NCBI GenBank assembly: GCA_903813345.2
Contig: CAIIXF020000007.1
Coordinates: forward strand, 11,961,031 to 12,025,030
DNA from: Owenia fusiformis
Taxonomy: Eukaryota > Annelida > Polychaeta > Sabellida > Oweniidae
Direction: 5' to 3'
Length of the DNA: 64,000 nucleotides
The notes beneath the pieces are model-generated. The model saw only the letters and a program-made list of their open reading frames with translations. It was not told the DNA's origin and made no database searches. The position numbers were made by a program, and so were the translations under genes. This document shows positions 3,890-50,298 of this stretch, piece by piece; the stretch's first letter is position 1; every line of letters starts with the position of its first letter.

Positions 3890-4039
3890 TAGTCCCTGAT
3901 CTGGACTTCCCTCTTAAAGAAAACACCTCTTCTATTGATGTAAACAGGGGCAAAAGGCACCAAAACGGGGTTAGACAAGGTGACATTCTAAAGTCTCACT
4001 TCCTTGTCATCACGATTCCAGGTAAACCATCAGACAGAT

Positions 4040-4860: not shown

Positions 4861-4874
4861 AATATAAAATACAG

Positions 4875-7552: not shown

Positions 7553-7579
7553 GTAGCATGTAACCTTCCTTGTTACATG

Positions 7580-16169: not shown

Positions 16170-17254
16170 TTTTTTTTTTTTTTTATTCATTACTTTATTT
16201 ATTTATATCAGTAAAATATTTTACACAAGAACTCCTCGATCGCCTTTCAGCATTATAGAGGAGCAAATAAGCACAAATAATGTAATACAATAGCAAATGT
16301 GTGCTGGTCAGGCACATAAGTTTCCTGGGTCTTGGGTGATATCAGGTCTGGAAGCCGGGTCGGTACTTGTTAGGTTTTGAGAGCCAAGTTGTTGGTGTGA
16401 AGAAAAGTTGCAACAGTTGTCAAAATAAGTGAATTTTTATCTAAGGAGATGTCAAGACTTCCATGCTTAAATAAGTTCAAGTAATAATTTTGATTTCTCT
16501 GTTCAATTTGTGCTATTTCATTGATATCTTTAAATAACTTTTCTCTCTCTGCAGTTAATAGTAGGCAGTGAAAGAAAACATGTTTCAAGGTCTGGGGAAG
16601 TCCACATGTACAATTAGGAGTATCAATAAAATTAAAGTTGTGAGCATATAACTGGGCTTTTAACAGGAGATCAGCTCTAAGTCGATTAATGATAATTTCA
16701 TGACTTCTTGAGATGTTGAGTTGGCTTGTAGTTATAGTTTGAGGTTGATCCGAAAAAAATAACTTTTGTTTATGTTTGAAGGTTTGAAGAGTTTTACAAA
16801 GTTTGATCTTATTTGGAAGGCTAAGCCAGCTAGAAATAGCAGCTGGAACTGCTGATTTACGATAGGTTTCTGAGCATCGGACAGGTAATCTGAATTCACG
16901 GTGTTCACGAAGATCACGACCCCTAGGGTTACGGAATTTTTCAAAAATTTCATCAATGTATATTGGAACAGGGCCATTAACTATTTTGAACATTTGATTA
17001 TTTATTTGAATTTTTCGCCGGGTTTCCAGAGTGGGCCACTGAAGTAAAGAAAGCACCTTTTCGAAACTACTTCCATGGAGACAGCCAGAGCAAGATAGTG
17101 CAGCTTGATAGTATAATCTGTCTAGTCTTTGAAGGAGGTACTTAGGAGCTGTATTGTAAAGGACAGTTCCATATTCAAAATGTGGACGAATGAAAGAATT
17201 AAAAATAGTTTCAATGTGTTTAGAAGTCATCATATTTTTGAGTGCCTTTAAAGC

Positions 17255-17745
17255 TGGACTTCGCTCCGAAACGCAATCTTGGGTTGTTTCGGGGGTGAAC
17301 TTTATCATTTGGAGCTTAATGAAAGATTATAGAATGATGAACAAATGGGGCAAATCTTGTGAAGAAATACTTACGATAAATGTGTCATTTCAAAGATTTT
17401 TCATTGAATTTGCTTCGATCGGAGCCGGTGATATGATTTTGGAAAGGTTTCTAAATGAAGAACGTGACGTCACTTCCGAATCATAGCATTCAAAATAAGT
17501 AGCGTTTAATTACACCCACCCTGACCATTCATAGTAATACCGTGGTCTAGCGGTCGAATCCTCGCTTAGCACGCGGGAGGCCAGGGTTCGAATCCCACAC
17601 TCGCCTTTTTATTTTTTTAACTAAATGATTGTTCTTTGATATTACGCAGAAAAAAAACTATTTTTATTTACATAAACTTTATATTAGAGCTTGAAAATGT
17701 AAAAACAATATATGTCAACATATTGCGTTTTGGAGCGATGTGCAG
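17255..17745. mobile_element. MITE nested in the LINE, carrying a tRNA-like sequence
   Basis: CGCTCCGAAACGCAAT (about 17261) is mirrored by ATTGCGTTTTGGAGCG (about 17725-17740), giving terminal inverted repeats around a ~490 bp noncoding body that interrupts the LINE reading frame. The body includes the tRNA-like segment at 17539-17605. Exact ends and target duplication are not resolved. Confidence 0.6.
17539..17605 (+). tRNA. tRNA-Ala(AGC)-like sequence, probably a pseudogene
   Basis: A box A-like TGGTCTAGCGG (17543-17553) and a perfect box B GGTTCGAATCC (17585-17595) are present, with an anticodon stem CTCGC/GCGGG enclosing loop TTAGCAC (anticodon AGC at 17568-17570). A T-rich Pol III terminator follows at once (TTTTTATTTTTTT). 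The 5' acceptor strand does not pair with the 3' CACTCGC and the outer T stem is mismatched, so a functional tRNA is unlikely. It may still be transcribed by Pol III. Confidence 0.45.
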
Positions 17746-18332
17746 GTTTAATGGACCAAGCATTTTACTAATTTTGTCAAAAATATCATTTATATGCTGT
17801 CTATGAGTTAGACAAGGGTCAAAAGTATAACCAAGATGTTTGTGCACATTGACTCTCTCAATTTCCATATTATTTAGAGTAGATGAACTAACATTGTCTA
17901 GTTTCATTTTGGATCCATGAAAAATGATTTCACAACTTTTTTCAGGCTTAAACTGTAAGCCCCATGTTTTCGACCAAAGCTCAATATTCTGGAGACTCGA
18001 GTTCACAATATTATCAATTTGGTGAGGATTCTTAGGATCAAATGAAAAATGAAGAGAAGTATCATCCGCATAGATGTAACACTGTCCGTTTAAGTTATCA
18101 GGAAGGTCATTTATATAGAGGATGAAGAAAAGAGGACCAAGTATGGAGCCCTGAGGTACTCCACAGTTTATAAATCCAGATTCAGATGAGACTGATGAAT
18201 CACCACTAATATTTACAAACATCTTTCTATCACTAAGATAAGATTCAATAATTTTGAATAGCTGTATTAGAAACTCTTTTAGACAAAAAAACCAACACGC
18301 TCAAGCGGGAGATAAAGGAAGATACAAAACAA

Positions 18333-18945
18333 ATGACGAAGAAGGCAAAGACGGAAACCAAGCTCACAAAGAAAGGAAATCAAAAGCAGTTTGACCACAA
18401 CACGGAGGTGCTGGACGTCATGAAAGACGTTAAAGATTTACTGGCAGACAGAGAACAAGAGGCTGCAGCCAAGCTGGGTGAAGGTATTGCTTTAATTTCT
18501 TATAGAAATAAATGCATTCAAATAGCGGACGACTCAACACTTGGTTGGGCCGCGGTCGAGGAATATATGAAAGATGAGTACGCTAGTGATAGCGACGATG
18601 ACAAAAAGATTCGTAGTGCAAGGGTTAATGCGGGTAGAAAAGCTAGAGAGAAAAAGATAACTGTAAGAACCGGGTCACGTAATAACCAGAGAGAAAGTTT
18701 CAATTTCAGCAGAAATGGGCAGGACCGGGGTAACCAACAATCCGGTAGGTGGCAGGAACGCCAGCAAAGGCAACAAAGGGAACAGCAACTTCAACAGCGG
18801 TCCGTACTACAACGCCAGAAGCAGAGCAAATGACGTCTGTAGGAACTGTTCCCAGACAGGACATTGGGCACGTGACTGCAAGCAAGGTGCCTCGTTCCAA
18901 CAAAACTCCTACGACTCAAGTAGCCAGAACAACAACAGATCATAA
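18333..18945 (+). other. Gag-like region of the DIRS-order element (fossil)
   Basis: The region is basic and glutamine-rich and ends in a CCHC zinc knuckle (CRNCSQTGHWARDC) typical of nucleic-acid-binding gag products. Frames overlap with the start of the polymerase region, as is common in the family. It is part of the broken copy at 15910-23250. Confidence 0.7.
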
Positions 18946-18949
18946 GTTG

Positions 18950-20870
18950 AGTAAGACTTTATCACATATTGTATCTGAAAAATCTGTAAAAGATAGTTTG
19001 AAGAAAAACGTTAGCTTTTGGGGAGAAATCGGTGCTTCACAGTACGTAGTCAATACGATCAAACACGTGTATAGAATACCATTTGAACAAGAACCAACAA
19101 AAGCAATTCTAAAAAACAATCAATCTGCTTTAAAGAAACGTGAGTTTGTAGAAAAATCAATAAACGAATTATTGCAAGACGGTCGTATCAAAGAGGTAAA
19201 ATATCCTTCACATGTAGTAAATCCCCTCACTGTGGCATCAACTGCAGAAAAGGACAGGTTAGTGTTAGATTTAAGACATGTCAACCCTTTCATCAATTTA
19301 GATAGAGCCAAGTTTGAAGATTTGCAAGTTGCCAAAGAATATTTAGTACCAGGGGGATATATGTTCGTGTTTGATATCAAAAATGGCTACCATCATTTGA
19401 ACATACTACCAGAACATAAGAAATTCTTAGGGTTTTCATGGGAACTTCATGGAAAAACCAGGTATTTTGAATACACAGTATTACCCTTTGGTATTAGCAC
19501 AGGAGGTCTCATATTCACAAAAGTTGTTAGGCAACTTGTAAAACACTGGCGTAGTCAAGGTATACGAATTATAGTATTCCTGGATGATGGGCTTTGTTTC
19601 CACGAGAGTGTTTCACTTTGCATAGAGCATTCCAACCAGGTCAGATCAGATCTGATCAAAGCTGGCTTTATTCCAAACGATAAGAAGTCAAAATGGCAGC
19701 CTGAACAGGTACAACAGTGGTTAGGTTTTAAATTGGATCTGTCACAGGGTAAAATTTTAGTACCAGAAAGTAAAGTCTCAGATGTGCATGAAAAGGTTAG
19801 TAAGTTACTCAGTAATGCAAACAGAACAACTGCTAGAGCAGTCGCAGCGGTAGTAGGGAAAGTGGTCGCACTAAGGCATGCCATAGGTGATATATGTATC
19901 CTTAAAACGAGATCGTTACAAGTTGTTGTAGCATGTAGGCCAAACTGGGACAATTGTATTCGTTTACGAACTGACGCAATAGGCGAGTTAGAATTTTGGT
20001 TACAGGGTTTATACACGTTGAACGGGACATCGTTGGTAAGAGAATATAAACATTCCAGGGTCGTGTACTCGGACGCTAGCAATAGTGGATGTGGTGGGTA
20101 TGTGGTCAATTTTGAGAATGAGGTATGTCACAAAACATGGTCGAATGCAGAGAGTCAGAGAAGTTCAACTTGGAGAGAGTTAATGGGAGTGTTCACAACA
20201 TTACTGTCCCTCATGCATTTGTTAAATAATCAAGAAATCAAATGGTTCAGAGACAATAAAAATGTAAGCTCAATCATTTTGAAAGGAAGTATGAAATCAG
20301 ATCTTCAAAGTTTAGCTCTAAGAATACACAGAGTTTGTAAAGAGAAAAATGTGAAGTTGAACGTAGAGTGGGTGCCTAGGGAACATAACGTTCTGATGAA
20401 ATCAGTAAATATGTAGATTTCGACGACTGGGGAATTCGTTTGAATGTTTTTAACTATCTTAACATTAGATGGGGGCCTTTCACGGTAGACAGGTTTGCTG
20501 ATGTGCATAATACGAAATTACCAAGATTCAATTCCAGATTTCACTGCCCAGAGGCAGAAGCAGCAGACGCTTTTACTCAATGCTGGAAGCATGAGAATAA
20601 TTGGTTAGTACCGCCATGCTGCCTGGTGGCAAAAGCATTTAGGTATTTAGTAGAGCAGAGACGTCGAGGTACGTTGGTCGTACCAAAATGGCTGTCAGCA
20701 GTGTATTGGCCAGTATTACATGATGGTAGGAAGTATCATTCTAGCATAAAAAGCGTTATTGAATTCCCCAAAGGAGGGCATTATTTCACAAAAAGCTCAC
20801 AGAAAAACAGCGTTTTTGATAGTGCACAGGGGTTCAGTAGCCCGCTCATAGCTTTGCAAATCAGTCATGA
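18950..20870 (+). other. Reverse transcriptase and RNase H region of the DIRS-order element (fossil)
   Basis: RT landmarks include DRLVLDLRHVNPFI, FVFDIKNGYHHLNI, LPFGISTGG and the catalytic FLDDG, a form common in DIRS-order RTs. RNase H-type landmarks follow (VVYSDASNSGCGGY), then the DIRS-typical RNase H extension (GPFTVDRFADVHNTKLPRF). These place it with PAT/Ngaro-type elements rather than LTR retrotransposons. The region is broken in this copy. Confidence 0.8.
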
Positions 20871-20972
20871 CTGATTAATGTGGCATCTGAGGCACATGCG
20901 TGTTGTGTTGTATATATTATGTGCAAATCAAACGCTGTGCTTCTATGAGCAAAAACGGTCAAAATGTAATCT

Positions 20973-22025
20973 GTGTCATCCAATGTATTTTCAGGCTACA
21001 GTGATACGGTGTTTAACAGCAAAGCTTGGACAGATGTAACAGACGTTTGCTCAAAACAAGAAGCATTTAAAGACTTTCCAAACAAGTTGAAGGACTTTGC
21101 GATAAGAAGCAGGGAACCAAATACGGTTACAAAATATTCTGCAGGTTTTGAAAAATTCAAAAACTGGTGTAACGCACTTGGCTTACAATTTCTTCCAGCA
21201 AATCATATACATGTTTCAATTTATCTTTTGAGTATTTTTCAAAATTCAAATCAGAGTTACAGTCAAGTAATTTCGGCAAAATACAGTATTGCTTGGGCTC
21301 ATAACATGGCATGCATTGACAATCCATGCGAGCATAACATGGTAAAACTGGTTACAGAAGGGTCACTTCGTCTTTCTAGCAAAAAGGTCAGCAAGAAAGC
21401 GCCAATTACAGTAAAACACTTAGAAGATATAATAGATTTTGCTGGAGAAAATGCAAGCGTTTTGGAGCTAAGCACGGCCACTCTTATGATATTGGCATTT
21501 GCAGGTTTTTTTAGGTTTGACGAAATGTCAAGATTGAAGTTCACAGATGTCAGTTTCAAAGAGTATTACCTAGATATTTTTGTAGAGAAATCAAAAACGG
21601 ATTGTTATCGTAACGGTGCAAATGTTTTAATAGCCAAATCAAACAACAAGACATGTCCATTCTCATTGTTGCAAAGATAAATGAGAGAACTTGGTGTTAA
21701 CTCACAAACTGACAAATTCATTTTTGGAGCACTTTCATTTTTTAAAAGCAAAATAAAACACCAATTGAAAGAATGTAATAAACCAATCAGTTACACAACT
21801 TGTAGAGATATGGTCAAAGCTGCCTTGGACAAAATTGGGGTAGATAGTAAGGTTTACGGGTTGCATTCCTTACGTTCTGGGGGTGCCACTAAGGCTGCCA
21901 ACGCAGGTGTTTCAGACAGGCTTTTTAAGGCGCATGGGAGATGGCAAAGTGAAACTGCAAAAGACGGTTACGTTGAAAGTGACATCAGCCAAAGGCTTTC
22001 AGTTACATTAAGTCTGGGACTTTAA
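20973..22025 (+). other. Tyrosine recombinase region of the DIRS-order element (fossil)
   Basis: An N-terminal core-binding-like part (REPNTVTKYSAGFEKFKNWC) is followed by a catalytic part with GFFRFDEMSRL, and near the end HSLRSGGATKAANAG and HGRWQSETAKDGYV. These fit the R...HxxR...H/W...Y layout of tyrosine recombinases, which integrate the circular DNA of DIRS elements in place of a DDE integrase. The region is broken in this copy. Confidence 0.8.
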
Positions 22026-22086
22026 GCGAAATCATACATTAAGCAATATGCAATTTTAAACATTTACGCCATCTTTAGCCTCGGTG

Positions 22087-23659: not shown

Positions 23660-25200
23660 TATCGTCGGCCTAGGTGCGTCCGTCTGTCTGTCCGTCCGTA
23701 CGTCCGGGATTTTATCCAAAACCGCTACAGATATCACCTTCAAATTTTCAGGGATGAAAATTTAATTCGAAACCTACTTCCTGTCGGCCATTTTGAAGTC
23801 AAATGCTAAAATCCTTGTCTGCAAACTTTTAGAAAAACGGCTTCACAGTTGCTTTTAAAAATTTAACATCTTGTTCAGCTCACTTCATTCTACATCTGAT
23901 TGGGTTTTGAACCTGTTAGCTCAGTCAAGGCAGCCACTTTGAATGTCTTAAGAAAAGTTAGAGCGCGATAATACTTTGTATCATATTGAATGGTGTTTTT
24001 GAGTCTTATACTTTAACTATTTAGTAGCTTTATAAATAATTCCAGATGTACTTTCTTGTAAAAGCCTATGTTATTGTGAACAGTAGTTATATGTGATAAT
24101 TGTGTAAAGAGAAATCAGCAAAAACTCATGTTCACTTTTTTGTTGTCGGCCATTTTGGATTTTTCCGTCCTAAAATCTTGTCTGCGAAGTCTTGTCTGCA
24201 TGTTTTCAGGTGAACCATTTGGTGGATCAATTTCAAATTTTCAGGGATGATATTTAGTATAAAAATCTAGATCTGGTTAGTTTTTTGGCATTCTTGGTAA
24301 ATGCCAAAGCAGCCATTTTAGATTTTCCGTCCTAAAATCTTGTCTCTAGAGTCTTGTCTACGCGTTTTCAGGTGAACCGTTTGGTAGATCAATTTCAAAT
24401 TTTCAGGGATATTTCTTAATAAGAAAATCTAGATCTGATTAGTTTTTTTGGCATTCTGGGTAAATGTCAAGGTAGCCGTTTTGGATGTCCCGTCCTAAAA
24501 TCTTGTCTGTAAAGTCTTGTCTACACATTTCCAGGTGAACCGTTCTGTAGATCAATATTTAAATTTCAGGGATGATTCTTAGTATGAAAATCTAGATCTG
24601 ATGAGTTTTTCGGCATTCTGGATAAATGTCAAGGCAGCCATTTCGGATTTTCCGTCTTAAAATCTTGCCTGTTAAGTCTTGTATATGCGTTTTAGGTGTA
24701 CCGTTTGGTAGATCAATTTCAAATTTTCAGGGATGATTCTTTGTATGAACATTTACATCTTATTAGTTTTTTTGCATTCTGTGTCAATGTCAAGGCAGCC
24801 ATTTTGGATTTTCTTTCCAAAAGTCTTGTCTGTAAAGTCTTGTCTACACGTTTTCAGGTGAATCCTTCGGTAGATCAATTTCATATTTTCAGGGATGATT
24901 CTTAGTATGAAAATCTCGAAACAGATTAGTTTTTAGACTTTTTTGGTAAATGTCAACGCAGCCATTTTGGATTTTCCATCCTAAAATCTTGTCTGTAAAG
25001 TCTTGTTTACACGTTTTCTGGTAAACTGTGACAGATCAATTTCAAATTTCCATGGGTGCTTCTTGGTATGAAAATGTAGAACTGACTAAACCTTTGGCAT
25101 TCTGGTTAATTTTAAGGTGGCCATTTTGGATTTTTCGTCCTCAAATTGTGTTGGTAAAGTCTTGTCTACTCATTTTCAGGATAACCATTTGATGAGATCA
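23660..25200. repeat. ~163 bp tandem array (about 9 units)
   Basis: It opens with a CGTCCG-rich run (CCGTCTGTCTGTCCGTCCGT near 23680). Units are anchored by GATCAATTTCAAATTTTCAGGG at about 24224, 24389, 24550, 24713, 24875 and 25036, with weaker ones before. Each holds GCAGCCATTTTGGATTTTCC and AAATCTTGTCTGTAAAGTC. The layout (CGG-rich tag, then units with GCCATTTTGGA) parallels the 28848, 37938 and 40550 elements in the opposite orientation. Confidence 0.85.
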
Positions 25201-28847: not shown

Positions 28848-29677
28848 AAACTAGAAAAACAGCAACTCCATGGAGTAGCAAATCCCACCGAACAAAACAT
28901 ATTATGCTTATTATAGCTAGTGTAAATGTTGAAATGTTTGTGCACTTTGTGATAGAAGCATGAAATTTGGCACAAAGTTAGTTTATACCATTGTGAACTA
29001 GGCATCATCATATAAAATTTGAACCAAATCCGTTCACTGGTATATGAGTTATCAAAGATTACATATTTTTACGAAAAATGGCCGCCATTTTGAAAATTAT
29101 TTCTTGAACAGAGCTACTGTGTCCCTAGGCATAATCATATAAAATTTCAACCAAATCTGTTCACTGGTATTTGAGTTATCAAAGATTATGTTTTTTACGA
29201 AAAATTGCCGCCATTTTGAAATTAAGCGGCCATCTTGAAAAAATTTGGTCGAACATAGCTACTATGTCCCTAAGCATCATCATATAAAATTTGAACCAAA
29301 TCCGTTCACTGGTATTTGAGTTATCAAAGATTACATATTTTTACGAAAAATGGCCACCATTTTGAAATTAAGCGGCCATCTTAAAAATCTCTTTTTGTGC
29401 AAAACTCCTTTGTCCCTAGGCATCAGCATATAAAATCTCAACCAAATCTGTCAACTTGTATTTGAGTTATCAACGATTACATTTTTTACGAAAAATGGCG
29501 GCCTTTTTGAATTTAGTGGCCATATTGAAAATTCCTTCTCGAGCAGAGGTCCTACACTCATAAGGCATAAGCCTATAAAATTTGAACCAAATCCGTCAAC
29601 CGGTATTGGAGTTACCGCCCGGACGAACGGACGGACGGCTTCTCTATATCCCCCTCGAACTTCGTTCGGTGGGATAA
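28848..29677 (+). mobile_element. ~146 bp array element, copy 1
   Basis: It starts AAACTAGAAAAACAGCAACT then CCATGGAGTAGCAAATCCCACCGAAC, and ends with CGGACGGACGG, CCCCCTCGAACTTCGTTCGG and TGGGATAA. ATCCCACCGAAC near the start and GTTCGGTGGGAT at the end are inverted copies. In between, about five ~146 bp units repeat GGTATTTGAGTTATCAAAGA, AATGGCCGCCATTTTGAAAT and ATAAAATTTGAACCAAATCC (anchors 29033, 29159, 29305, 29450, 29596). Copies at 40550-41538 and 37938-38715 make it a dispersed element rather than a local satellite. No ORF is present. Confidence 0.8.
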
Positions 29678-35735: not shown

Positions 35736-35741
35736 TTTATT
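35736..35741 (-). promoter_or_regulatory. Poly(A) signal AATAAA of the allatotropin gene
   Basis: AATAAA on the minus strand lies 217 bases past the stop codon at 35959-35961, giving a 3' UTR of plausible length. It is inferred from position only. Confidence 0.5.
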
Positions 35742-35958
35742 CCTGTTTGCCAAGCTATCAAAAGGCCTCCAATACACACTGGGAGTTTGCATTTCGAGAC
35801 CCCCAATTTCCTGCTCTTTTCTGCTCATCATGTCCATGCATTCATTAGGAATTAGCAACTGATTCATATCAGTGCAAGTCAGTTGTATGGGCAATGTTAA
35901 GCATAAAGCGTTGAACTCATATTTCAATGACGCATTTAGCTTGGAGCTCATGCTAAAT

Positions 35959-36008
35959 TCACTTCACATCGATGAAGATGTTCATCTCTTCATTCAATGA
36001 CATTGTTC
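35959..36008 (-). other. Allatotropin gene exon 4 (last coding exon)
   Basis: The acceptor TGTTTTCCTCTAAAG precedes the exon, which begins GA to complete a glycine codon. It encodes GTMSLNEEMNIFIDVK and a TGA stop (35961-35959). The MSLNEE block matches the SSEEL end of other allatotropin precursors, which supports this otherwise very short exon. The 3' UTR continues to about 35720. Confidence 0.75.
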
Positions 36009-39000
36009 CTTTAGAGGAAAACACCTTAAATAAAATTTATATGCTCTTCAAGCTTTGGTTTATTCATTTGTTGCAGTGACTAATAGAAACAAAAGAAATG
36101 GACTACAGAACCATTATCCAAGTGTACAAAACTACAGAATGACCAGGATTTTTTAAACAATTGTCAAAAATCAGAAAATCCTCCTGATTTGCCTAGACTA
36201 GATAAGGTGATTTATTGTATATGTGAAGTAATTTATAGTATATGATTTAATTTCAGTCGAGACATACTCTTACATCAAGCAGTTCCAATACAAAAGTTGT
36301 GAAATTTGGGTCATTTCTCTCTTCTATAATTTGACATTGGTTGCTTTCTATTATATAAAGTATCATATTTGAAATTTGGATTATGGCAATGGCTTTGTGG
36401 ATGGATTTTGACACTTTGATACATTTATGGACTTCAAAACTGGATTTTGTCTGTCCCACATCATACAAGACTGAGTGCCCTATCTTGTATGTTAGTATGT
36501 ATGTATCTAGTATAGTATCTACAGCTATTTTTGATGTTATGAGTATTGGTTATCAATTTATATTTATTCTTCAACATGTACTCTTATGGTTTATGTATGA
36601 ATGAAATGTCTCTTGGAGTTATTGTCCTGAATTGTGATAATAATGCTTGAATAATGGGGGAAGGATATAAGATATTGTTTCTTTTCACTCAACTTTAATT
36701 TTTCATAACTGGGATAATTGTGTTTTTTTCATTATGACTGGTGTGCATTTAGATGCTTTCTTTCTTTTGCTGGGTTCTGCAACAATTTTTGTCCTTCTCC
36801 TTTGGCACTTGTGCATACATGTATTGACACATCTGTTGATCAGAAAAAATGAATGGAGGGGGAGTAACTGATTTATATTAGAAAATTTACTGCCCCCTCC
36901 GTTCACTTTCCCTTACATTCAATTCTAATTATTTTCAATTATTTTTTCTATAACATATGGAAACTTATTCTAAAAAGCCAGAAATGACATCATTTTTTGA
37001 TAATACCATCAGTTACAAAATCACATACTCACCATTGGTGTCTATATATGTTTCCACAAAGGCCTTTGCTAATTCATCACTTTTAGTTAACAGTTGAGCC
37101 AGTTCATCTGTTGTAAAAATATGTTTGCTGAAATCAGAATAAGTTGGAATATAAATTAAGTATATTTAAAACCATTAAAATAGTATAATTAAAAAGCAGA
37201 TTTTTTCGTCACCTGCAGGTTCCCAAGGGATTTTATTTGTGACAATTATATCCGGTGCTCTGGATATTAACGAGAGAAAATATCAAACCCATAAACAAGT
37301 CAATGAGTCTACCCATATTATCCAACTGTCACAATGACCATCTTATAGTTGAATCCTTTTAGTTGAGTAATAGCTTTTATGCCACAATTGCATGACCAGA
37401 CCAGAAAACAAGCAATAGTGTCAAAGTGTTTTATGTTTCATGTCAATGTGTGTAAATACATCGACCTTGACCTTGAAATTTTTTTACTTTTTCCGACCTA
37501 AAGTATAGGGATTTTGTGATTAAGCTGAATAAAATTTGTATATAATTATATTAAACAAAGAGAAAGGGGAACAAAATTCAAAGTAACCATGACATATAAA
37601 CAATTCGAACATGACATAATGGCAGACCATATAATGAATATTCGAGTTTTCATGTTCGAATCATAATATAGACCTCAGAGCAGGTGTAATATCATCGAAT
37701 ACACCCCTTGGGGCTAGGCACAAAAGCTTTTGAATCTTTCAGCATTCCTTTTTATGTTCTTCTCCTCAAGCATCATCCCTTTTCCACTGGGTCTAGAGAC
37801 CCTGTGGTATAAAAGGTCAATTTGTTTCTCAGATTCATATGTGGTGGTTCATGGTCTGGTGTTAAGTCCACGGACCCAATCAGAACGCTCTGCTTCGTCA
37901 TGTGACAAAATATTGAAAATGTCAATACAGACTAAAATAACTAGACAACAGCAATGCCAAAGCGCAGCAAATCCCATCGAACAGCCATTACTGGCATTTT
38001 TATGAACAAAATATGTAGCAAAAATGGCCGCCATTTTTCAAAATGGCCGCCTTCTACCAAAAGTGTCATAAGCCAGTGTGCCATGCTTATAGTATTCACA
38101 TACCAAATGCATGGTTTACTATATGACCGCAGTCGACGGTCTATTACCGGCGACTCTTGCAGTTAGCCTGGTCCACTGACAAGGAAAAATCAAAAATCGA
38201 AGACTAAAACACCTCAAATCCACATTCAAGGTCTTCTTGACACGCGTATGGTATATAGGAAGCAGAATGTTGGATAGAACGTTAGGTGAAAATGGGGCTG
38301 GAATCCAATGACAATATCACCGGGAAATCATTAAAAGGTACGTGAGCATTTTTCTATCAATGTCGGGAAAAGATTCCCGGGGATTTAGGATACCAGTGAT
38401 TGTGAATATCGGCAGAAATTAGGTACATCCGGGGGTTTTCTTTGTAGCTAATGAAAATAGATGTTAGCCTTGTTGAAATATCCAAACTTCGATCTATTTT
38501 GACATCAGGTCCATGATCGTTGGATACGTCTATGCACTATTTACTCAACCTTTAAATGAGCGGCCATTTTGAAAATCGGCTCTCGATCAGAACTTCTACC
38601 CCCATAGGGTATATGTGTAGAAATATGAACAAAATCGGGCCAACGGTATTTGAGTTATTGCCTGGACGGACGGAGGCATTCCCTATATCCCTCTGAACTT
38701 CGTTCGGTGGGATAAATATTACATCATTGATTGGCTGATTGGTTTTGTGGTGTCTAAGATTTATCTGGTGAGGTAGGAACAATTGAAACCTTGTGAATCA
38801 AGACGCTCCTGAAATCCAATTTAAACTTCTGGGAACTTTTAATAATTTTTTAAAAATTGGTCAATTTGAAGCAATTTGATAAAATACCTTTTCGACTTGG
38901 AGAAAGTAATTGAAGGTCAAATCTAAAGTCAGATTTGAACTTCTGAGAACTTGTACCATTAAATTTGTACTTGGTAGATAAAGGAGTGGTATCGATATGG

Positions 39001-42000
39001 AGAACTGAATTCAACAATGTTTTTCTCTTAAACCAATCATTGAAAACATTCTGTAAAAAACACGGTATTTTATGTAATGTTGACTGATTGGCAACAATTT
39101 AATGAGAAAATTATTTAGAAATATTTTATATAACTGTTTTGGTTAACATTTTTTGTTTTTCTAGTGCAATTGTTTTTGCTCCTTTCTACCAATTCTTGAG
39201 AATGAAATAAAATGTCTTTCCGAACCTTGTTGGAACAAAATAGCATATACAACATGTTTTTAGACCTCTCAATATTATAGTTATATAAAGGAATTTTTGG
39301 TTGATTTTAAAAAAGTATTCAAAAAGTTAAAACAAAATCCCTCCAAAATAGATAAAAATAAAGATAAACCTTTTATTTCATTAACAAGATACTTTTTTAA
39401 AATCAACCAAAATTTCCTTTGTACAATTACAATATTGAGAGACCTAAACATGTTGTGTTTATGTTGTTTTGTTCCAATGGGGTTCGGAAAGATGTTTCAT
39501 TTCACTCTGGAAACATGATACCAAGAACAAAACAAGTGTTTGATGTGTTTTCTAAAACAAGATGAAAGTATATATATATTTTTCCAATTATATTGTTACC
39601 ATTCAAAAGATGACCATTAAATTGACAATGTGTAAAATTTTCAGAATTTTTTGATGACTGGTTTAAGAGAAATGTGTGTTCAAAAAGTTCGCCATATCGA
39701 TACCCATCCTTTGAGTCTAAACAGTACTAGTTAAGTTATTGGAAGTTTTAAGAATTTGTTACAAATAGGAAACATCAGATACCAACCAATGAACACTGTC
39801 AAAAAAAAGATGGAGAACATAACACTTTTGGTGGTGACATAAAAATGCCTAAAAACTAAACAACTCTAGATTCTTAGAAATTTAAAATCAATCAATCAAG
39901 TTGTTAAGACAAGGAAAATCAGATGCCCCCCTATCCACATGATTGACAACAATTTAATCCCTTTAGAGGTATGAAAATGGCTCAGATGGTGATTTGTATA
40001 ATCTTGAAGAGCCAATGGTGTAAATTAGTGCATTTAGTTGAGATGACTATCTAAATGTCACCCATTCCTTTACAGGCACATCTGGATTCTACATAAAAAG
40101 TGTCACATAGCCTTTTTAACATTACTTTGTTTGTGTCATGCAGTACAACCTTTTGCCAACTTGAAACTAAAACTAATATGCATTTACCATTTCAAAACTT
40201 TTCATTTCATTTCAAATATTGTAAGAGACATTTCAAACAATTCCTTTTTTATTTTCAGTCAAAAGAGAATTGATCAATAGGACTTGAACAAAAAAGATTA
40301 TTGCTATGAGGATTCAGACTAATATTTTTATCTGACCAATTAGAAATTGGATAAAGAAGCATTGGAATTTGGAGGAATGGATTTTGGATGGGTGAGTTTT
40401 GGAAAAATAGAATTCCAGCCAATGGAATATGTTCAAAGAGGGGAAAAAACAGCAAAAGAGATGTTGACCACCATACTTAAGATCCTGCCTCTAATGCCAG
40501 AGATCTTGACCCAAAAATTGGAAATCTTAAAATGTTGATTATCCTGACAAAACTAGAAAAACAGCAACTCCACGGAGTAGCAAATCCCACCGAACAAAAC
40601 ATATTATGCTTATTATAGCTAGTGTAAATGTTGAAATGTTTGTGCACTTTGTGATAGAAGCATGAAATTTGGCACAAAGTTAGTTTATACCATTGAACCA
40701 AATCCGTTCACTGGTATATGAGTTATCAAAGATTACGTTTTTTACAAAAATTGGCCCCCATCTTGAAAATTATTTCTTGAACAAAGTTACTGTGTCCCTA
40801 GACATAATCATATAAAATTTCAACCAAATCTGTTCACTGGTAATTGAATTATCAAAAATTACGTTTTTTACGAAAAATTGCCGCCATTTTGAAATTAAGC
40901 GGCCATCTTGAAAATTTTTTGTCGAACATAGCTACTGTGTCCCTAAGCATCATCATATAAAATTTGAACCAAATCAGTTCACTGGTATTTGAGTTATCAA
41001 AGATTACATATTTTTACGAAAAATGGCCACCATTTTGAAATTAAGTGGCCATCTTGAAAATCTCTTTTTGTGCGAAACTCCTTTGTCCCTAGGCATCAGC
41101 ATATAAAATTTGAACCAAATCCGTCAACTTGTATTTGAGTTATCAACGATTACATTTTTTATGAAAAATGGCGGCCATTTTGAATTGAGCGGCCATATTG
41201 GAAATTCCTTCTCAAGCAGAGGTCCTACACTCATAAGACATAAGCCTATAAAATTTGAACCAAATCCGTCAACCGGTATTGGAGTTATCGCCCGGACACA
41301 CAGACAAACGAACGGACGTCATTTGTTGTTGCTGCATTGGTTTCTTCATTCATTTTCTTCTTGCTTTGTCTTGATTTGATTGCGATGTTACTTATCTTTC
41401 TTCAGGGTCCACAGACTTGAGACTGCGCATAGGTGGGTTAAACGTTTTGATTCGGCCGGAAAACTCTCCCCTTCCCCTTACTGTTGGTACGGACGGACGG
41501 CTTCTCTATATCCCCCTCGAACTTCGTTCGGTGGGATAATGAGATCTGTACCAAATAGGCCTGCTGAAGATCTTAAAAGTATATGAGGTAGTCTCTGTGG
41601 ACAGGGAAATTTTGCAGCTAATGTTTTTGACTTTGTGATAATACATTCCTCTGCACTCAATTTATTTCTATAATGAAAGGACAAGTCTTGGTTTGGATAT
41701 AACTGGGCTAATAATTTTTTTATAAAAAATAGAAAGAAATAACACCCAAATTAAATTGTGAATATTCAAAAGAGGACATTAAAACCTACATTATGTAAAA
41801 ATATCAAAATTGTCCGAAGCAGGCGTAACGTGCAGTAGACTGATTCAATAAAGGACAATTCTCGGTTTGGAGAATGAAGTTCACCAGTCTACTGCACTAA
41901 TTATCTTTTTATGAAAAATATAATTAAATTACGGATATTCAAAATATCAAAATTGTCTAAAGCAGGCATAATGTGCGGTAGGCTGATGAATTTCGTTCTC

Positions 42001-42716
42001 CAAACCGAGACGTCTTTTATAATAGTTGACCTATGAATGGTACTTCGATAACTGAGGGAGCCATTAGCCAACTGATCAGTTAGGTTATAATAATATAATT
42101 ACAAATCATTGCCAAATTGCTTTGAAGTAACAAATCAATAGAGCACAATCAGAACAGCAGAACAGTGCTTGTTAAATCAGTGAACATCAATGACACACAT
42201 ATCACCAGTTACACTGTCACACACAGTAGAGTGACATATAGATATTTAGCCATTTATATTGAAATTTTTCATCTCAATATATACACTATTTCAGTCACCA
42301 TAATGTCAAAAGAATGGCAGGTCATTGTGACATATTTATTTATTTAGAAAATTATGACTTTGGGCAAGGTAAGAAGAAGTCATTGTGACATATTTCTTCA
42401 TTTGAAAAATTATGACTTTGGGCAAAATAAAAGTCTAAAAGTTAGAATCCAAGCTAGGACAAGTTCATCTGTATATATCAGCTCACTAATTAACTCTGCC
42501 ACCTGCTATCAATACTTGTAGAAGGGGCAACAAGTCAACTCACCTATTTTTGGTATTATAATCATATGGGAAGCCATCATTACGTTTGCCATAGCCGTGA
42601 CTGAATCGTGTACCTGCGCCTGACCTGAATCCACGTTTCTGTCTGTTTGGTGCGGGCACTGCCTCTATGGCTAGCACAAGGACTCCAATCACCAGGAAAC
42701 ATAGTCCTATCTTCAT
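35959..42716 (-). CDS. Allatotropin/orexin-type neuropeptide precursor (spliced, 3 coding exons)
   Basis: The precursor has 105 residues from exons 42716-42544, 37127-37033 and 36008-35959 (minus strand). It opens with a signal peptide (MKIGLCFLVIGVLVLAIEA). A short spacer ending QKR precedes the peptide GFRSGAGTRFSHGY, then G-K-R: convertase sites on both sides and a glycine for C-terminal amidation. The 14-residue GFR...HGY-amide form matches lophotrochozoan allatotropin-related peptides; insect allatotropin is GFKNVEMMTARGF-amide. The C-terminal flank (FTTDELAQLLTKSDELAKAF, then VETYIDTNGTMSLNEE) aligns with the conserved tail of insect precursors (FVNEML...FIDLNQDGMLSSEEL). Secreted from neurons, it would act on an orexin-like GPCR. 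Exon phases agree at both junctions (AG|C giving Ser, G|GA giving Gly). It looks intact. Confidence 0.88.
36503..36840 (+). repeat. Dispersed repeat R1 copy, in intron 3 of the allatotropin gene
   Basis: ATTTTTGATGTTATGAGTAT, TTATTCTTCAACATGTA, GAATGAAATGTC, AATTGTGATAA and GGTTCTGCAACAATTTTTGT occur in order. This is the fullest copy of R1 in the window. Confidence 0.75.
37033..37127 (-). other. Allatotropin gene exon 3
   Basis: A 95 bp exon sits between acceptor TTATTCTGATTTCAG and donor GTGAGTATG. With AG from the previous exon its first C makes Ser, followed by KHIFTTDELAQLLTKSDEL and AKAFVETYIDTN; its last G starts the glycine completed by exon 4. It encodes the conserved C-terminal flanking peptide. 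Confidence 0.85.
37938..38715 (+). mobile_element. ~146 bp array element, copy 3, interrupted
   Basis: It begins CTAGACAACAGCAATGCC then AGCAAATCCCATCGAAC and ends CCTCTGAACTTCGTTCGGTG then GGATAA, matching copies 28848-29677 and 40550-41538. Only single starting and closing array units remain (AATGGCCGCCATTTTTCAAA and GCGGCCATTTTGAAAATCGG), separated by the ~455 bp repeat at 38100-38556. It lies in intron 2 of the allatotropin gene. Confidence 0.7.
38100..38556 (-). repeat. ~455 bp dispersed repeat R2, copy 1
   Basis: The segment from CCAAATGCATGG to ACTCAACCTTTAAATG matches the reverse complement of 54597-55062 along its length. Shared words include ACTCTTGCAGTTAGCCTGG, ATAGAACGTTAGGTGAAAA, CACCGGGAAATCATTAAAAG and GTGATTGTGAATATCGGCAG. 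No terminal repeat or long ORF is seen. It sits inside the array element at 37938-38715. Confidence 0.85.
38980..39714. mobile_element. ~0.73 kb foldback MITE (family F1, copy 2)
   Basis: The ends AAAGGAGTGGTATCGATATG and CATATCGATACCCATCCTTT are inverted, and the interior folds (GGTTGATTTTAAAAAAGTAT with ATACTTTTTTAAAATCAACC; GACCTCTCAATATT with AATATTGAGAGACC). It matches 27257-27966 and lies in intron 2 of the allatotropin gene. It has no coding capacity. Confidence 0.85.
40550..41538 (+). mobile_element. ~146 bp array element, copy 2
   Basis: It is closely similar to copy 1 (28848-29677), with the same start (AACTAGAAAAACAGCAACTC), the same order of five units and the same end (TTCGTTCGGTGGGATAAT). 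It differs by an extra ~180 bp at about 41315-41495, inserted in the CGGACGGACGG tract. It lies in intron 2 of the allatotropin gene. Confidence 0.85.
41676..42015. mobile_element. Foldback MITE family F2, copy 1 (diverged)
   Basis: GAAAGGACAAGTCTTGGTTT at the left, GGACAATTCTCGGTTTGGAG in the middle and TCTCCAAACCGAGACGTC at the right match the F2 element at 45489-45885. Internal AATATTCAAAAGAGGACATT is also shared, inverted. It lies in intron 2 of the allatotropin gene. Confidence 0.65.
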
Positions 42717-42725
42717 TGCTCAACC
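42544..42725 (-). other. Allatotropin gene exon 2 (start codon, signal peptide, mature peptide)
   Basis: The acceptor CTTTACATCTTCCAG is followed by GGTTGAGCA and the ATG at 42716-42714. Fifty-seven full codons end with DYNTKN and AG, then donor GTGAGT. The start is chosen because it is the first ATG after the acceptor and opens directly into a hydrophobic signal peptide. The whole amidated peptide and both KR sites lie in this one exon. Confidence 0.9.
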
Positions 42726-43074
42726 CTGGAAGATGTAAAGCAACAAGGTATGTTTTAATCATAACGATAAAGAAATTGCAAACAGTTGATATCTTGTCAT
42801 ACATATTTTCAAAGGAAAGAAATAATTCTGACTGCTTTTGATCTTTCAGATTATTTTACAATAATGTCATCCCAATTCTAACGAATTTAGACATTTCTTC
42901 ATCTTAATTCTTCAAATTCAGTTTCAGGTATGAACATGTTTAGAGATAAGTAGTAAGGTGACATAAAAATTACACCAAACATACAGAACATCTAATAAAA
43001 AAATCATTAAAGTATAAGGCCTATTTTTGATAATGTGACCTAAAAAGGCCTAAAAGGCCAAATTATGCCCAAAA

Positions 43075-43160
43075 AGGCCTATATTTCTTTAAATATATTT
43101 TTTCTGGGCCTAAAGGGGGGGGGGGGGGGGCATGGACCCCTCTGGATCCACCAGTGATAC
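43075..43160 (-). repeat. Solo hAT-like transposon end
   Basis: Read on the minus strand, CACTGGTGGATCCAGAGGGG TCCATG followed by a poly(C) run resembles the CAGTGGCGGATCCAGGGGG terminus of animal hAT elements. The opposite end was not found. Several AAAAGGCCTA words lie alongside. Confidence 0.45.
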
Positions 43161-43725
43161 ATAACATTTAATTTAAACTGATCATAATGTTCCCATATTT
43201 AACCTAGATAAGTAAACTGTTTCATTTCTAGCAGATACACAGAATGGACACTTAACAAATAATGAGATTTCCAAGTGGCCAGGATAATAATCATTATTTA
43301 TCGGTCAAAGACAATTGTCTTTTACGTAAAATGGACACACATAAAAGTACTAAACTTTCTCTATTGCATGTAAGACAGCACTGCCAATTAAATCCCAAAT
43401 GAATATGGTCCATTCAATGATCATTTGGGTGAAGCAAACCTGTACCAACTATGCAAAGTTTAACCTCAGATTCCACAAGCCAAGGCCTGAATTAATTTGT
43501 TTGTTAAGGCAGTAGTCTTTTTGCTCTGATTAAAATGCAGTCACCATTCATAGACAAATTGATTCATCTATGAGAGACATATAATGACAATTTCAATCAC
43601 ATTTTTTCACTACTATGTTTTCCTTTTCAATTTTGTTATAGAGCAGTAGAAAATTAAATTAAAAAACAGGTTACATATACACTGGATGCTTTTGCATTGA
43701 ACAATAATAACACAATTAAGGCCAA

Positions 43726-43830
43726 CATTTTGGAGGTAAACATCCAAAGCAAAACCATTAACAACAATAGCGAGAAACAATACAAAACAATAGCGGGATA
43801 TAAGAAACTGCAAGGGATCACCTATCCTGG
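43726..43830 (+). repeat. ~105 bp direct duplication, copy 1
   Basis: CATTTTGGAGGTAAACATCC through GGATCACCTATCCTGG recurs at 44327-44431 with about two differences, 601 bp away. No transposon features are seen. Confidence 0.9.
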
Positions 43831-44326
43831 ATTAATCAAAAGAAGTCATTAACATTGATTACAACTATGTTTAATAACTGAAGCAAAACTTCCAGATTTG
43901 TCAGAAAAGATGTGACAAGTAATTATATCTCAATGATTCTCATCTTTATTGACTTCAGAACTGATTTAACTCAAACTTAAGCACTTTTTCTTGTAAAATC
44001 CTTCTGGGATACCCAGTTAGTGCAACTTAAGGCAACCAATGCATTTACACATTAAAAAGGTTCAGACATCTCCAAGTTATGTTTCCATAAGCACAAAGTT
44101 ATAACTATACAGATCCCAAAATTTTCTATTTCAAAGATATATAACTTAACTTAAAATGTTCATCTCTCATTCAGAATGAATAGCAGGTTTAAACATCTCC
44201 AATATGTTTTCGTAAGCACAAAGTTATAACTATACTAAGAAGAAACCTAAAAGACAAGATTAACTTTGAAAACATGAGAAAATATGAATAACAGATCCAA
44301 CAATATCACGCGGTACTAACTCACAT

Positions 44327-44431
44327 CATTTTGGAGGTAAACATCCAAAGCAAAACCATTAACAACAATAGCGAGAAACAATACAAACCAATAGGGGGAT
44401 ATAAGAAACTGCAAGGGATCACCTATCCTGG
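44327..44431 (+). repeat. ~105 bp direct duplication, copy 2
   Basis: It is the second copy of 43726-43830. It ends exactly where the inverted-repeat element at 44430 begins, so that element probably inserted at this point or mobilised with it. Between the copies a smaller near-duplication occurs (GCACAAAGTTATAACTATAC at about 44091 and 44216). Confidence 0.9.
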
Positions 44432-45323
44432 CGTATCGGACCCAAAACGCCCCGCAAAACCATTAATTTGAATTTTAAACCTACCCTTTCTTTTGAAAAT
44501 CAATGATTGTGAGTCTCACAGTACACCATTTTTCTTCAAACTTGTTCCATTAAAACCTTCACCGAAATACCTTTCACTCGAGACATTGCTTTTGTGTACA
44601 GAGTCGCTCGTTTAGCGGCGTTTTGGTCCCCAGCTGTGAGAAGATGCAAATCTTCAGAGATTTCAACCAAAAGCCGCGATATATCTCGAGTTCTTTTATT
44701 ATTCTCCCCTATTTTGCACAAGGACTTCCATTACAACCATCCATCTCTGCATCAACATATTTATTACATTAAACGCAGCAATTTCCAAAAGTCCGACACA
44801 TCTGTTCGAAATTGATCAAAAAGCCCCATTCTCTTCCAAAACGCCCCGTTGGATCTATACACCTTGAAACTACACGTTTGTAGTCATAGACTCTGCGGGG
44901 CGTTTTGGAAGACAACGGGGCATTTTGGTCAATTTCGAACAGTTGCGTAGGACTTTTCAGAATTGCTGCGTCTCATGTAATAAACATGTTGATGCAGCCA
45001 TGGAGGGTTGTAATGGGAGTCCTTGCGCAGAATATGGGGGAGAGTGATACAAGAACTGGCGAGATACATGTATCAAGGATTGTGGTTGAAATCTCTGAGG
45101 ATTTGCAACTTCTCACATCTGGGGACCAAAACGTCGCTAAATCGAGGGACTTTGTAAACAAAAGCAATGTCCCAACTGAAAGGTATTTCTGTGAAGGTTT
45201 TAATAGAATAAGTTTGAAGAAAAACGGTGTAGTGTGAGACTCACAATCATTGATTTTCCAAAGACAGGGTAGATTTGAAATTCAAATTAACGGTTTTGCG
45301 GGGGGTTTTGGTTTCGATACGCC
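44430..45323. mobile_element. 0.9 kb foldback element with ~400 bp arms
   Basis: The ends GGCGTATCGGACCC and GGTTTCGATACGCC are inverted, as are AAAACGCCCCGCAAAACC and GGTTTTGCGGGGGGTTTT. Inside, mirrored blocks include TCAATGATTGTGAGTCTCAC with its complement near 45235, and GATGCAAATCTTCAGAGATTTC with its complement near 45090. Open frames in both arms (44536-44721 minus, 44905-45237 plus) are mirror images (GDQNVAK), so a short conserved frame may once have been coding, but no family is recognised. It lies in intron 1 of the allatotropin gene. Confidence 0.8.
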
Positions 45324-45488
45324 CCGGTTAGTAAGTACTGTGTGAATATGTTCTATTTCAAAGATAACTGTACTTGTAATGTTCAGCAGTCATTCAGAAT
45401 TGATAGCAGGCTTAAAGAAAATATACGTAATAATAAAACCTAGTTGAGCCCTGATGACCCGAATGGAAATGTATTTGTTTTTGGATTA

Positions 45489-45885
45489 CAAAGGACGATT
45501 CTCGGTTTGGAGAACGAAGTTCATCAATCTAAATGAGCATTATCCCTGCTTCGGACAAATTTGATTTTTTTTACATAATATAGATTTGAATGTCCTCTTT
45601 TGAATAGTCATAATTTAATTTGGGTAATATTTCTAGATTTTTCTCAAAAAAATATTAGCGCAGTACACTGATGAACTTCTTTCCCAAAATCGAGACTTGT
45701 ATTTTATTAAAATCGGTCTAATTGAGCGTTATCCCTGCTCCAGACCAATTTGATATTTTTACATCTTGTAGATTTAAATGTCCTCTTTTAAATATTCATA
45801 GTTTAATTTGGGTAATATTTCTATATTTTTCATGAAAAAAATATTAGCCCAGGAGACTGTTCTCCAAACCGAGAATCGTCCTTTG
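45489..45885. mobile_element. Foldback MITE family F2, copy 2
   Basis: CAAAGGACGATTCTCGGTTT GGAGAAC at the left and GTTCTCCAAACCGAGAATCG TCCTTTG at the right are perfect 27 bp inverted ends of a 397 bp element. An internal, less perfect copy (CCCAAAATCGAGACTTGTATT) near 45690 divides it into two half units. Its relative is 41676-42015. Confidence 0.85.
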
Positions 45886-46142
45886 GCTATTGATTTCAGT
45901 CTGAGAATGGATTCAAACTGACATTTATGCTATTTATGTGCACAGATATGAGAAACACCATGGCTATCATGGTATTTGTCTGATATTGAATTTTGATCTC
46001 TTGTAGCAGGACTTCCCATAGGTGGTGTGTTTTTTCTATTATTGGACAGACCTTTCCAACTTGAACCTATTTTGGGATTCTCTTGTGAATAAAATGTCAA
46101 TGTTGTGACTTTGAATTATATAATTTAATTTTGCGATATAAG

Positions 46143-46620
46143 GTGAATGAACTTATCAAAGAGCAGAGACTTTGCATTAAAATCTGTGTAAAACAAGGAA
46201 AAGACTTTGAGGACACTGTAAGAACATGTAGAGCAACATATGAAGACACCTGTTGTTCCTATCCCATGATAAGAAGCTGGTTCAACAAGTTCAAGAAAGG
46301 CATCTCAACCAGCGAGGATTGGCCAAGAAGCGGGTGAAAAAGGACAGAGATAATAAAAGAAAACATTGACTTAGTGAAGGCAATAATTGAACAGGAAAAT
46401 GCCTAATTATGGATTGGATACGGAGGTTTAGAAAGTGTATTCTATTTGGGGGAGAATACTTTGAAGGAGATATAGAGCCATGGCTTAGGCCCTCTGGCTT
46501 AATGTTGTGGGAAAGATAAGATAGGTCCATGGACTGCACATTGTGGTTGGATACATTGATGGTGACGTAAAAGTATCCACATTCAAACTGCTCCGCGGTA
46601 TCAATCAAACGGATGTAAAA
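46143..46620 (+). pseudogene. mariner-type transposase fragment (N-terminal helix-turn-helix)
   Basis: The frame ELIKEQRLCIKICVKQGKDF followed by RATYEDTCCSYPMIRSWFNK and FKKGISTSEDWPRSG is the classic N-terminal DNA-binding region of mariner transposases (EQR...K.G....E......YG......V..WF.RFK.G..S..D..RSGRP). An in-frame TGA at 46335-46337 is followed by a further readable piece (KRTEIIKENIDLVKAIIEQE) ending at a TAA. Beyond about 46410 only scraps resembling the catalytic half remain. The DDE catalytic domain is not intact, so this is a dead remnant in intron 1 of the allatotropin gene. Confidence 0.7.
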
Positions 46621-46624
46621 CTGT

Positions 46625-49600
46625 GGCTATAATATATTACATGCTATAACTTTCACAGCTTAATAATAAATATTCAAACTATACATCCTGGAAGTTTTGT
46701 CTTGTTCTGATCATTCCTCGTATTTTTAGAGCAAAAAGAAAGGAACTTTTCAAATTTGCCCTCGTATTTATGTAAATTTAATATCCACCCCATTAGTTGA
46801 TGTACTTTAGTGAGATTGATTTCTAACACATATATACTTTCCTCTGTTGCTGCCATTAATGTTTTCCAAAACATAATTTTCATAGCTTATTTAAATGTTC
46901 TGTACATACTTTCATTACAAAGACAGCAACAATGTGAGAAACAAATGCCATTGAAGAACCACTATGTAAAATACACAGATTAATACAATATCAGGAACAA
47001 ATGAAAATTGACTGACATGTAAATGTTTCATCCTTTTATTATCATATTTTAATATCTTCATTAATTACAATGATCCTTTAATAATCCTTTCCTTGGTGGA
47101 ATCATGGATACAGCTGAGTTAATTAAAGAACTACACTGACACAATTAAAGGACAGGATAATAAATTGGTGGGGACCAGTTTGGTCATAGCAGATAAAGGT
47201 TAACCAGATTGTCTGTGAAGCAATCAACACCAGACACATTTCATGTCCTCCAAAATCAAAGCTTATTAAGAAATACATCTGTCACACCTGTTTCAATAGA
47301 ACAAGATATTGAAGTCTCCAAATTACCATCCAATTATTTTTGGCAGGTATCATAAAATGTTGAACACTAAAAAGACATGCTCTAAGATCTACAACAATGA
47401 TACATCTGATTCAGTGTTCACTAGACACAGGATAATTCAATAGATTTTGCCAAGCTTTAGTGTTCACTGAAGGAATGTACTTCAGTGGAGTCGATGGGAG
47501 AAAAAGGCTGAGGAAAATGCACACTGTTAAAGAGGGGTTCACTAATACAATTTTTAAAGTATATACTCTGCAAAATCTTTCTGTAATTAGACTATTAGAA
47601 TTGTTAGAATGTTGAAATGACCATTGCGAATATTGCCTTCCTTAGAGGAGATACAATGTAATGGACAATGAAGCATGATTTATATCCTTTTAAAGTGACT
47701 GAGCTAAGTAATTATTTCTAAATAATAATTTCTACACATTGCTTTATAGACTCTTTTATCATCTCCAGTCTTCTATATTTCCTGGATTATCATAATGTTT
47801 TTGAAGAATCTTAATTAATGAGAGAAGTCAACCTTAGACTTGGACTTTCTTGAACTAGCTTAAAATGTTTTATAATACTAAAAATAGCTTGGTCAAATAA
47901 CCTAGTATATAAATCCAGATGATGACAAATAACACCAAATAAATACAAAACTAATCAATGTTCTCTTGGAGGGAGGGCATTATCAGGTAAACTGTAAACA
48001 CTGATATAATTAAAACAATGTAATAGAATGATGACTAATCAGGTAAAGTAAGTTGATTAGCTCATTTAAAGTATTTCCCTTATCCTCAGAACTAGCAATA
48101 GGTACAGCTTATAACTTAGAGATACAGCCCTTTCTCATAATAATTGCCTCAGTATATTGTCTAAATATATTGAAAATGTAGATTATTACTGTCTTGCAAA
48201 CCACTAAGAGTACTTGGAATTGCCAGTCCCAACATATGCCTTATGGGGTCATGATCCTTAACCACTAGTGATGATATTTCAATAGAAGAGGCTTTATGAC
48301 ACATAATACTAATATTTGTGAAATATTGATATCTATAAGTACTTTCTACTACTATCACTTATGTTCCCAATCAATGATCAATTATCCTGTGCAATGAATT
48401 CAGACTTTATAGTTTACATTTCAATTCAAATAATAATTAATAAAATAAAATATTTAATCTGTTTATCAATTATGGGATAATAATCTAAATTCAACAAGAA
48501 ATTATTATTCATACTTTATGTTTGAGGGGAAAGTACTAAAATCACTTCAAAACTGTTAACCTTTACAATCACTTGGTCACTTATTAAAAAAAATGTGGCA
48601 TTCCTGAGTCATTGATTTGGGGATAAAATTAAACATGTGGGAGATTGGTTCAGCCTAATTGATATTCAGTATACATATTAGACAACAGTTGAATATTCCA
48701 AACATGAAACCTTTGTTTCCAAGGGAAGCTGGGAAATAGTCGATGTTGTTAAAAAATCTTGTCTCTACCTGTTGAAGTTTAAACAAACAAAACATATCGA
48801 CTTTCTAGAAGGGAGCATCCATAATAAAGCAACTTGACTTATCAAGCATTCTGGTATTCATCATATTTGAGACACATTCAATTTTGTTTCTTAATTTATT
48901 ACTACTTTTGTTTGCCATTTTCAAATATTCTTCATTTTGGTAAATCAATGGATATCATGACATTGCAGTCAGAAGTAGAATTATATATTCTTAATTTCAG
49001 GAAATCTTTTGGTAACACTGATATCTATAAGTTACACAAAAATGGGCCCAGAAATATCCTTGTCAAGTGTAATTGATTCTGGTCTATACAAAAATGATAT
49101 TTCCAAATAAAATGGTATGCGATACACTTTATGGACTTAATGCATTAGTAATACAGAGGACAAATGGCAACATGTAGTAAGTAAACAATATGAATATCCA
49201 GAAAATAAAACAAACATTTAATTTGTATTCTTTTTTACTTTTAACATACTCTATTGACCAAATGATGGTTTTATATTAGTTGCCATGGCTTTTTAAATGG
49301 TTTTTCATTGTACTTTTCCCAGCATGGGAAACTCAGTGGGGGAGAATTATTGTCACAAATACCATATATTGATTAGAAATTATTAAAATAAATATGACAC
49401 TCACACCGTTAAAGAATCAATGTGAAGAGACAGTATACACTCTTTGCATATTATAGTTTATATTGCCATAGGCCAATACTGACATGTTAGTATACCTGGT
49501 TCAGTTGTTGTCTGTGGTTCTAGTTATTTACTTTATATCAATGTCCAAAGTGAACAACAATTTATACATTTACATTATTCAAAAGTTATCAGACACCTAC

Positions 49601-50200
49601 TTGTTATTTGGGAATTCTATGCTATATTCATCATCAATTATGAATATTTCTAAATGGAATTATAAGATTACGAGTAAATGAAACTATACTCATATATGAC
49701 TTACTCTTCATTGATTGTATATTTTTTCAAAATGTTTCACATACTGTAATGAATAATGATCCATTGTGTGCTGGCATTTTGAAATTATTTTTATATATTT
49801 AGAAATTGAAATATAAATGTATAAAACTGGGAAAAACATATTCAATACAATATTCTTCTACCGACATATTCATTTTTTACATATTTCTTCATTGAAGAAT
49901 GGATGTATTTTAAAAGAAAATTCCCCTTGCCTCACATTTCACCGGAATCACTAGGAATCCACAAAATTAAGCATGTATATGAAAAATATGCATGCACTAA
50001 TTCACGCATAACACTAAAACATAAAGTGCATTTTTCACAAAAGTCATTTCTTTTGAAAAATACTTGTTTTAATATTAAACTTAGTCTATTAATTTACTAA
50101 TTTAGTATACTATTAAATTAAGTGATATTTAATTTCATATGATTACCTTCATTAAAATCAAAAAAAATTTAACCAAAGTTGGAAAGTTAAAATTATTTCA
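46625..50200. other. Intron 1 of the allatotropin gene, nothing further recognised
   Basis: AT-rich sequence without coding character or clear repeats; short open frames here look random. Confidence 0.5.
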
Positions 50201-50206
50201 ACTTAC

Positions 50207-50298
50207 ACGTTTATCCTTCTCAACACTTTGTGTGTTAGTATCCAAATCTCTCCTCTTGTTGCGTACTGTACTTAGTAGCAACTGTGCTTGAAAGGAAT
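50207..50298 (-). other. Probable 5' non-coding exon 1 of the allatotropin gene
   Basis: The exon runs from a TCATTCC initiator-like sequence to a donor GTAAGT (50206-50201) and contains no ATG. It is joined to the gene by inference: same strand, a consensus donor, and a coding exon 7.5 kb downstream that starts with an acceptor nine bases before its ATG, which requires an upstream exon. Confidence 0.5.

Follow-up and report, generated by a model that had tools for sequence, protein, structure and literature searches.

The window analysed here, a stretch of 64,000 nucleotides from the annelid Owenia fusiformis (33.6% G+C, with 500 N), carries on its minus strand a gene that, judged by its sequence, is very probably a single-peptide allatotropin precursor gene of the allatotropin/orexin family, lophotrochozoan-like in character (Table 1). 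This degree of confidence covers the identity of the gene and not its exact outer exons. Joining the exons in silico at 42544/37127 and 37033/36008 yields a single open frame of 105 codons closed by a TGA stop, whose translation is MKIGLCFLVIGVLVLAIEAVPAPNRQKRGFRSGAGTRFSHGYGKRNDGFPYDYNTKNSKHIFTTDELAQLLTKSDELAKAFVETYIDTNGTMSLNEEMNIFIDVK. Exon 2 contributes 173 coding bases (ATG 42716 to 42544) and exon 3 contributes 95 (37127-37033), with intron phases of 2 after exon 2 and 1 after exon 3. The borders read AATAG/GTGAGT at the end of exon 2 (42544), TTTCAG/CAAAC and CAATG/GTGAGT at the start and end of exon 3, and CTAAAG/GAACA at the start of exon 4 (36008). The distance from the start to the stop codon is about 6.8 kb in the genome, and the whole gene spans about 14.6 kb, provided that the proposed first exon is right. 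The coordinates, the phases and the 105-codon join of the original prediction were all reproduced when the sequence was read and joined anew.

Table 1 Elements of the predicted allatotropin-type gene and their positions in the window
Feature	Position	Strand	Content
Exon 1, conjectural (non-coding, 5' UTR)	50207..50298	-	donor CGT/GTAAGT at 50206; TATA-like TTATAAG at 50324
Exon 2	42544..42725	-	9 nt of 5' UTR, ATG 42716, signal peptide, QKR, 14-residue peptide, GKR, spacer
Exon 3, likely	37033..37127	-	SKHIFTTDELAQLLTKSDELAKAFVETYIDTN plus first base of the next codon; predicted C-terminal flank of the precursor
Exon 4, plausible	35736..36008	-	TMSLNEEMNIFIDVK-stop, then 3' UTR as far as AATAAA
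Predicted amidated allatotropin	42591..42632	-	GFRSGAGTRFSHGY; GKR next (42590-42582)

Other elements are also present in the window. A DIRS-like retroelement, so named by eye from its ORF order, lies on the plus strand at 18333-22025; it includes a possible gag, a reverse transcriptase (RVT_1, 6.1e-16), a weak RNase H match below the cut-off and a weak Dam-methylase match that narrowly misses its own cut-off (PF05869, 2.9e-6), as well as two same-frame ORFs separated by a stop that resemble a tyrosine recombinase by eye and have no Pfam match. Beside this element, a 42-nt direct repeat occurs at 22084 and 23159. Two LINE-like elements, also named by eye, are present in pieces at 1170-3725 (plus strand) and 16370-18222 (minus strand), with reverse transcriptase matches within 2184-3725 and 17668-18222. 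Tandem arrays whose units measure 145-162 bp are dispersed over five places, 4003-4863, 7571-8070, 24149-25200, 29084-29614 and 40758-41289, the last of them inside intron 2 of the allatotropin gene. Intron 1 contains long nested inverted repeats at 44430-45323 (184 nt at 89% and 156 nt at 84%), which suggest an insertion of the foldback or MITE type. A cysteine-rich ORF of 127 residues (CSCKGACDSMRCSCKKQ...) at 4968-5351 on the plus strand has no Pfam match at E 0.001. Scanning the window for Rfam families and tRNAs returned nothing.

The peptide exon is the firmest part of the gene. Exon 2 encodes KR-GFRSGAGTRFSHGY-GKR, and the peptide is preceded by the N-terminus MKIGLCFLVIGVLVLAIEAVPA, whose hydrophobic core (12-residue mean hydropathy up to 3.31) is signal-peptide-like as judged by hydropathy. 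With BLOSUM62, the peptide reaches a mean score of 41.2 against five printed lophotrochozoan allatotropins, compared with 17.8 for the runner-up among the 51,503 stop-free 14-mers of the window. The window contains the bounded peptide pattern a single time and 60 simulated windows do not contain it at all, and none of the six frames of the window holds a further copy of the peptide. The Pfam family PF08187 (myoactive tetradecapeptides) aligns over positions 1-14 of 14 with 12.2 bits for the precursor and 14.7 bits for a 29-residue piece, both below the 25-bit cut-off; this cut-off is unfair for so short a motif, because none of three known allatotropins set in the same flank reaches it (Platynereis 21.0 bits, Aplysia 12.3, C. 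gigas no match). The predicted precursor has the allatotropin-type layout of a signal peptide with one amidated peptide close behind, after which a spacer leads on to a C-terminal flank. The assignment to the allatotropin/orexin type in the original prediction is the best reading and is supported by the signal peptide, the dibasic sites, the amidation glycine, the 14-residue length and the GFR.....R..HGY frame.

Support for the exons weakens outward from exon 2, which is secure beyond reasonable doubt. Splice sites were scored with approximate consensus tables and ranked among the 3,283 GT and 3,102 AG sites of the minus strand. Exon 2 has the 3rd-ranked donor and the 11th-ranked acceptor, and exon 3 has the 7th-ranked donor, in agreement with the good splice consensus claimed for the gene at the outset; that claim is too generous for three other sites, the acceptor of exon 3 (265th), the acceptor of exon 4 (187th) and the donor of exon 1 (57th on the strand, 14th among the 1,128 upstream GT sites), which are only moderate. 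Exon 3 is likely to be part of the predicted gene, and it is the third of six open phase-2 internal-exon candidates downstream of exon 2 when the thresholds are set 2 bits under its own scores.

The C-terminal tail of allatotropin-family precursors, such as that of Manduca, is conserved and EF-hand-like, with loop patterns of the form D-G-x-[ILVM]-[ST]... and D-x-[ND]-x-D-G. A tail motif has its sole match in the window in exon 3 and none in 60 simulated windows; the match is supportive and not independent, because the motif was composed from the Manduca precursor after exon 3 had been seen. When simply aligned with the Manduca tail, exon 3 scores 30 and the joined precursor 34, which is not significant against a background in which the best unrelated segment of the window scores 34 and the best scores of shuffled tails have a mean of 38.6 and a maximum of 49. 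The EF-hand-like loop patterns are absent from the six unspliced frames of the window, a search that would miss any loop interrupted by an intron, and exon 4 is without D-G.

Of the coding parts, exon 4 is the least certain, a plausible and best local choice that is unproven. Its acceptor is followed by AATAAA at 35741-35736, the first such signal past that site. Ranked as a continuation by similarity to the Manduca tail, it is 14th among 1,131 open candidates overall, 3rd among the 206 within 6 kb and 4th among the 100 whose acceptor scores at least 1.0. Two continuations inside that 6 kb score higher, both from poor acceptors (36799 and 34766); of the candidates with good acceptors, the three listed above exon 4 (one of them tied in score) lie some 18 to 23 kb further on. 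This ranking is a fairer measure than the single regular-expression match of exon 4, which is not independent evidence because its pattern was composed after exon 4 had been seen. There is perhaps one chance in four that the precursor is an allatotropin precursor with another 3' end, through retention of intron 3 (ending YIDTNGEYVIL-stop) or use of another terminal exon, with the peptide unaltered. The reading frame of exon 3 does stay open past its donor into GEYVIL-stop, and the modest overall rank of exon 4 by tail score and that of its acceptor point the same way; against such an ending, few donors of the strand are stronger than that of exon 3, the read-through scores 7 against the tail where exon 4 scores 19, and exon 4 is followed by an AATAAA. 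The 5' end is looser still, and the exon placed at 50298-50207, the weakest of the four, is a guess. The acceptor of exon 2 sits 9 bases ahead of the ATG, and an upstream exon is therefore required if that acceptor is used. It is an even bet whether the first exon lies somewhere other than the proposed site: 13 upstream donors equal or beat the score of the candidate, and a non-coding exon is beyond the reach of similarity tests. In favour of the proposed exon, a TATA-like box, an initiator-like site and a GTAAGT donor follow in order at 50324-50206, one of only two such combinations found upstream among 25 TATA-like sites, with the caveat that the pattern list was composed after the site at 50324 had been seen and includes the pattern of that site.

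Two further readings are far less likely. The locus could be an allatotropin copy that has decayed or is not transcribed, or an open frame that resembles a peptide by chance, as the repeats and tandem arrays in the introns might suggest; we consider this very improbable, given the intact frame over three exons, the strong donors and the failure of the peptide pattern to appear in any simulated window. Less credible again is a precursor of another family with HGY-amide peptides, such as the molluscan FCAP. Scallop FCAP-like peptides do end in HGY or HGF, for example SLDRLGGAFIHGY as printed in PMC5996578, whereas the two scallop FCAP genes described there carry 21 and 13 copies against the one found here, and the FCAP peptides printed there do not begin with GFR as the allatotropins do.

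Database searches added no relative of the gene. All 18 pattern matches in viral contigs went unconfirmed, and one of 78 in non-eukaryotic genome contigs was confirmed, a stretch in a Rhizobiaceae record with 40% identity over query residues 8-47 and an E value of 1e-6, calculated against the candidate stretches alone. We reject it as a chance match, because the stretch lies opposite an ORF of 331 residues on the complementary strand and depends on the string HGYGKRND. A search of PDB sequences gave no match, and a Pfam match to MRP-S28 (E 0.13) was set aside as weak, below the cut-off and biologically odd. A search that covered the main text of the open-licence literature found neither the exact peptide nor RFSHGY-type strings.

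From the coding sequence, the processing sites and the resemblance seen here, we infer the following route for the allatotropin precursor. Splicing of the pre-mRNA would join an upstream non-coding exon to most likely three coding exons, and the signal peptide would direct the 105-residue product to the secretory pathway. Convertase cleavage at KR and GKR, followed by conversion of the glycine to an amide, would release GFRSGAGTRFSHGY-amide, which may act on a G-protein-coupled receptor of the allatotropin/orexin type. By analogy with Aplysia, where the peptide is reported to raise the excitability of feeding motor neurons (PMC9082908), and with the locust, where allatotropin is described as causing gut contraction (PMC4357254), such an action could excite feeding circuits or visceral muscle. 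The allatotropin and orexin types are regarded as homologous on the grounds of receptor orthology and precursor structure (PMC4772807). The gene looks genuine but ordinary, an added member of an already known family that leaves knowledge of the allatotropins unchanged. Annotation based on ORFs would miss a neuropeptide gene of this kind, with its 105 codons spread over three small coding exons, and the gene yields a specific peptide sequence that is open to test, its amide having calculated masses of 1498.730 for [M+H]+ and 749.869 for [M+2H]2+.

Allatotropin is on record from molluscs, annelids (Platynereis), nemerteans, brachiopods and phoronids, according to PMC6425005, PMC3890597 and PMC8557429. 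Our comparison set comprises the five printed peptides of Platynereis, Aplysia, the scallop P. yessoensis and two oysters, C. gigas (Crassostrea) and P. fucata (Pinctata). The bivalve allatotropins, printed as GFRQSIVDRMGHGFa and GFRQSIIDRMGHGFa for the oyster pair (PMC4200219) and as GFRQGIVMRIGHGFamide for the scallop P. yessoensis (Patinopecten; PMC5996578), share their length and frame with GFRSGAGTRFSHGY and are identical to it at 6, 6 and 7 of 14 positions, respectively; unlike it, they end in HGF and have a different middle. The Aplysia allatotropin-related peptide, given as GFRLNSASRVAHGY-NH2 (PMC9082908), likewise has 14 residues, a GFR start, an arginine at position 9 and, in common with GFRSGAGTRFSHGY, an HGY-amide end; the two are identical at 7 of 14 positions, and Aplysia has LNSAS and VA where GFRSGAGTRFSHGY has SGAGT and FS. 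The string RVAHGY also occurs in three cone-snail papers. The idea that the predicted peptide mixes annelid and molluscan features is weak, because the three bivalve peptides, out of four molluscan ones, end in HGF as the annelid one does, and only that of Aplysia ends in HGY. It is conceivable, though we would not favour it, that the gene represents a lophotrochozoan lineage with no published allatotropin and that the peptide, with its annelid-like RFSHG core and tyrosine-amide end, retains a state ancestral for spiralians, the precursor tail having been shortened and its EF-hand-like loop lost. The allatotropin of Platynereis dumerilii, printed as GFRTGAYDRFSHGFamide (PMC4749568), is also an amidated peptide of 14 residues with the pattern GFR.GA..RFSHG, and it is identical to GFRSGAGTRFSHGY at 10 of 14 positions; the two differ at positions 4, 7, 8 and 14, where Platynereis has T, Y, D and F and the Owenia peptide has S, G, T and Y.
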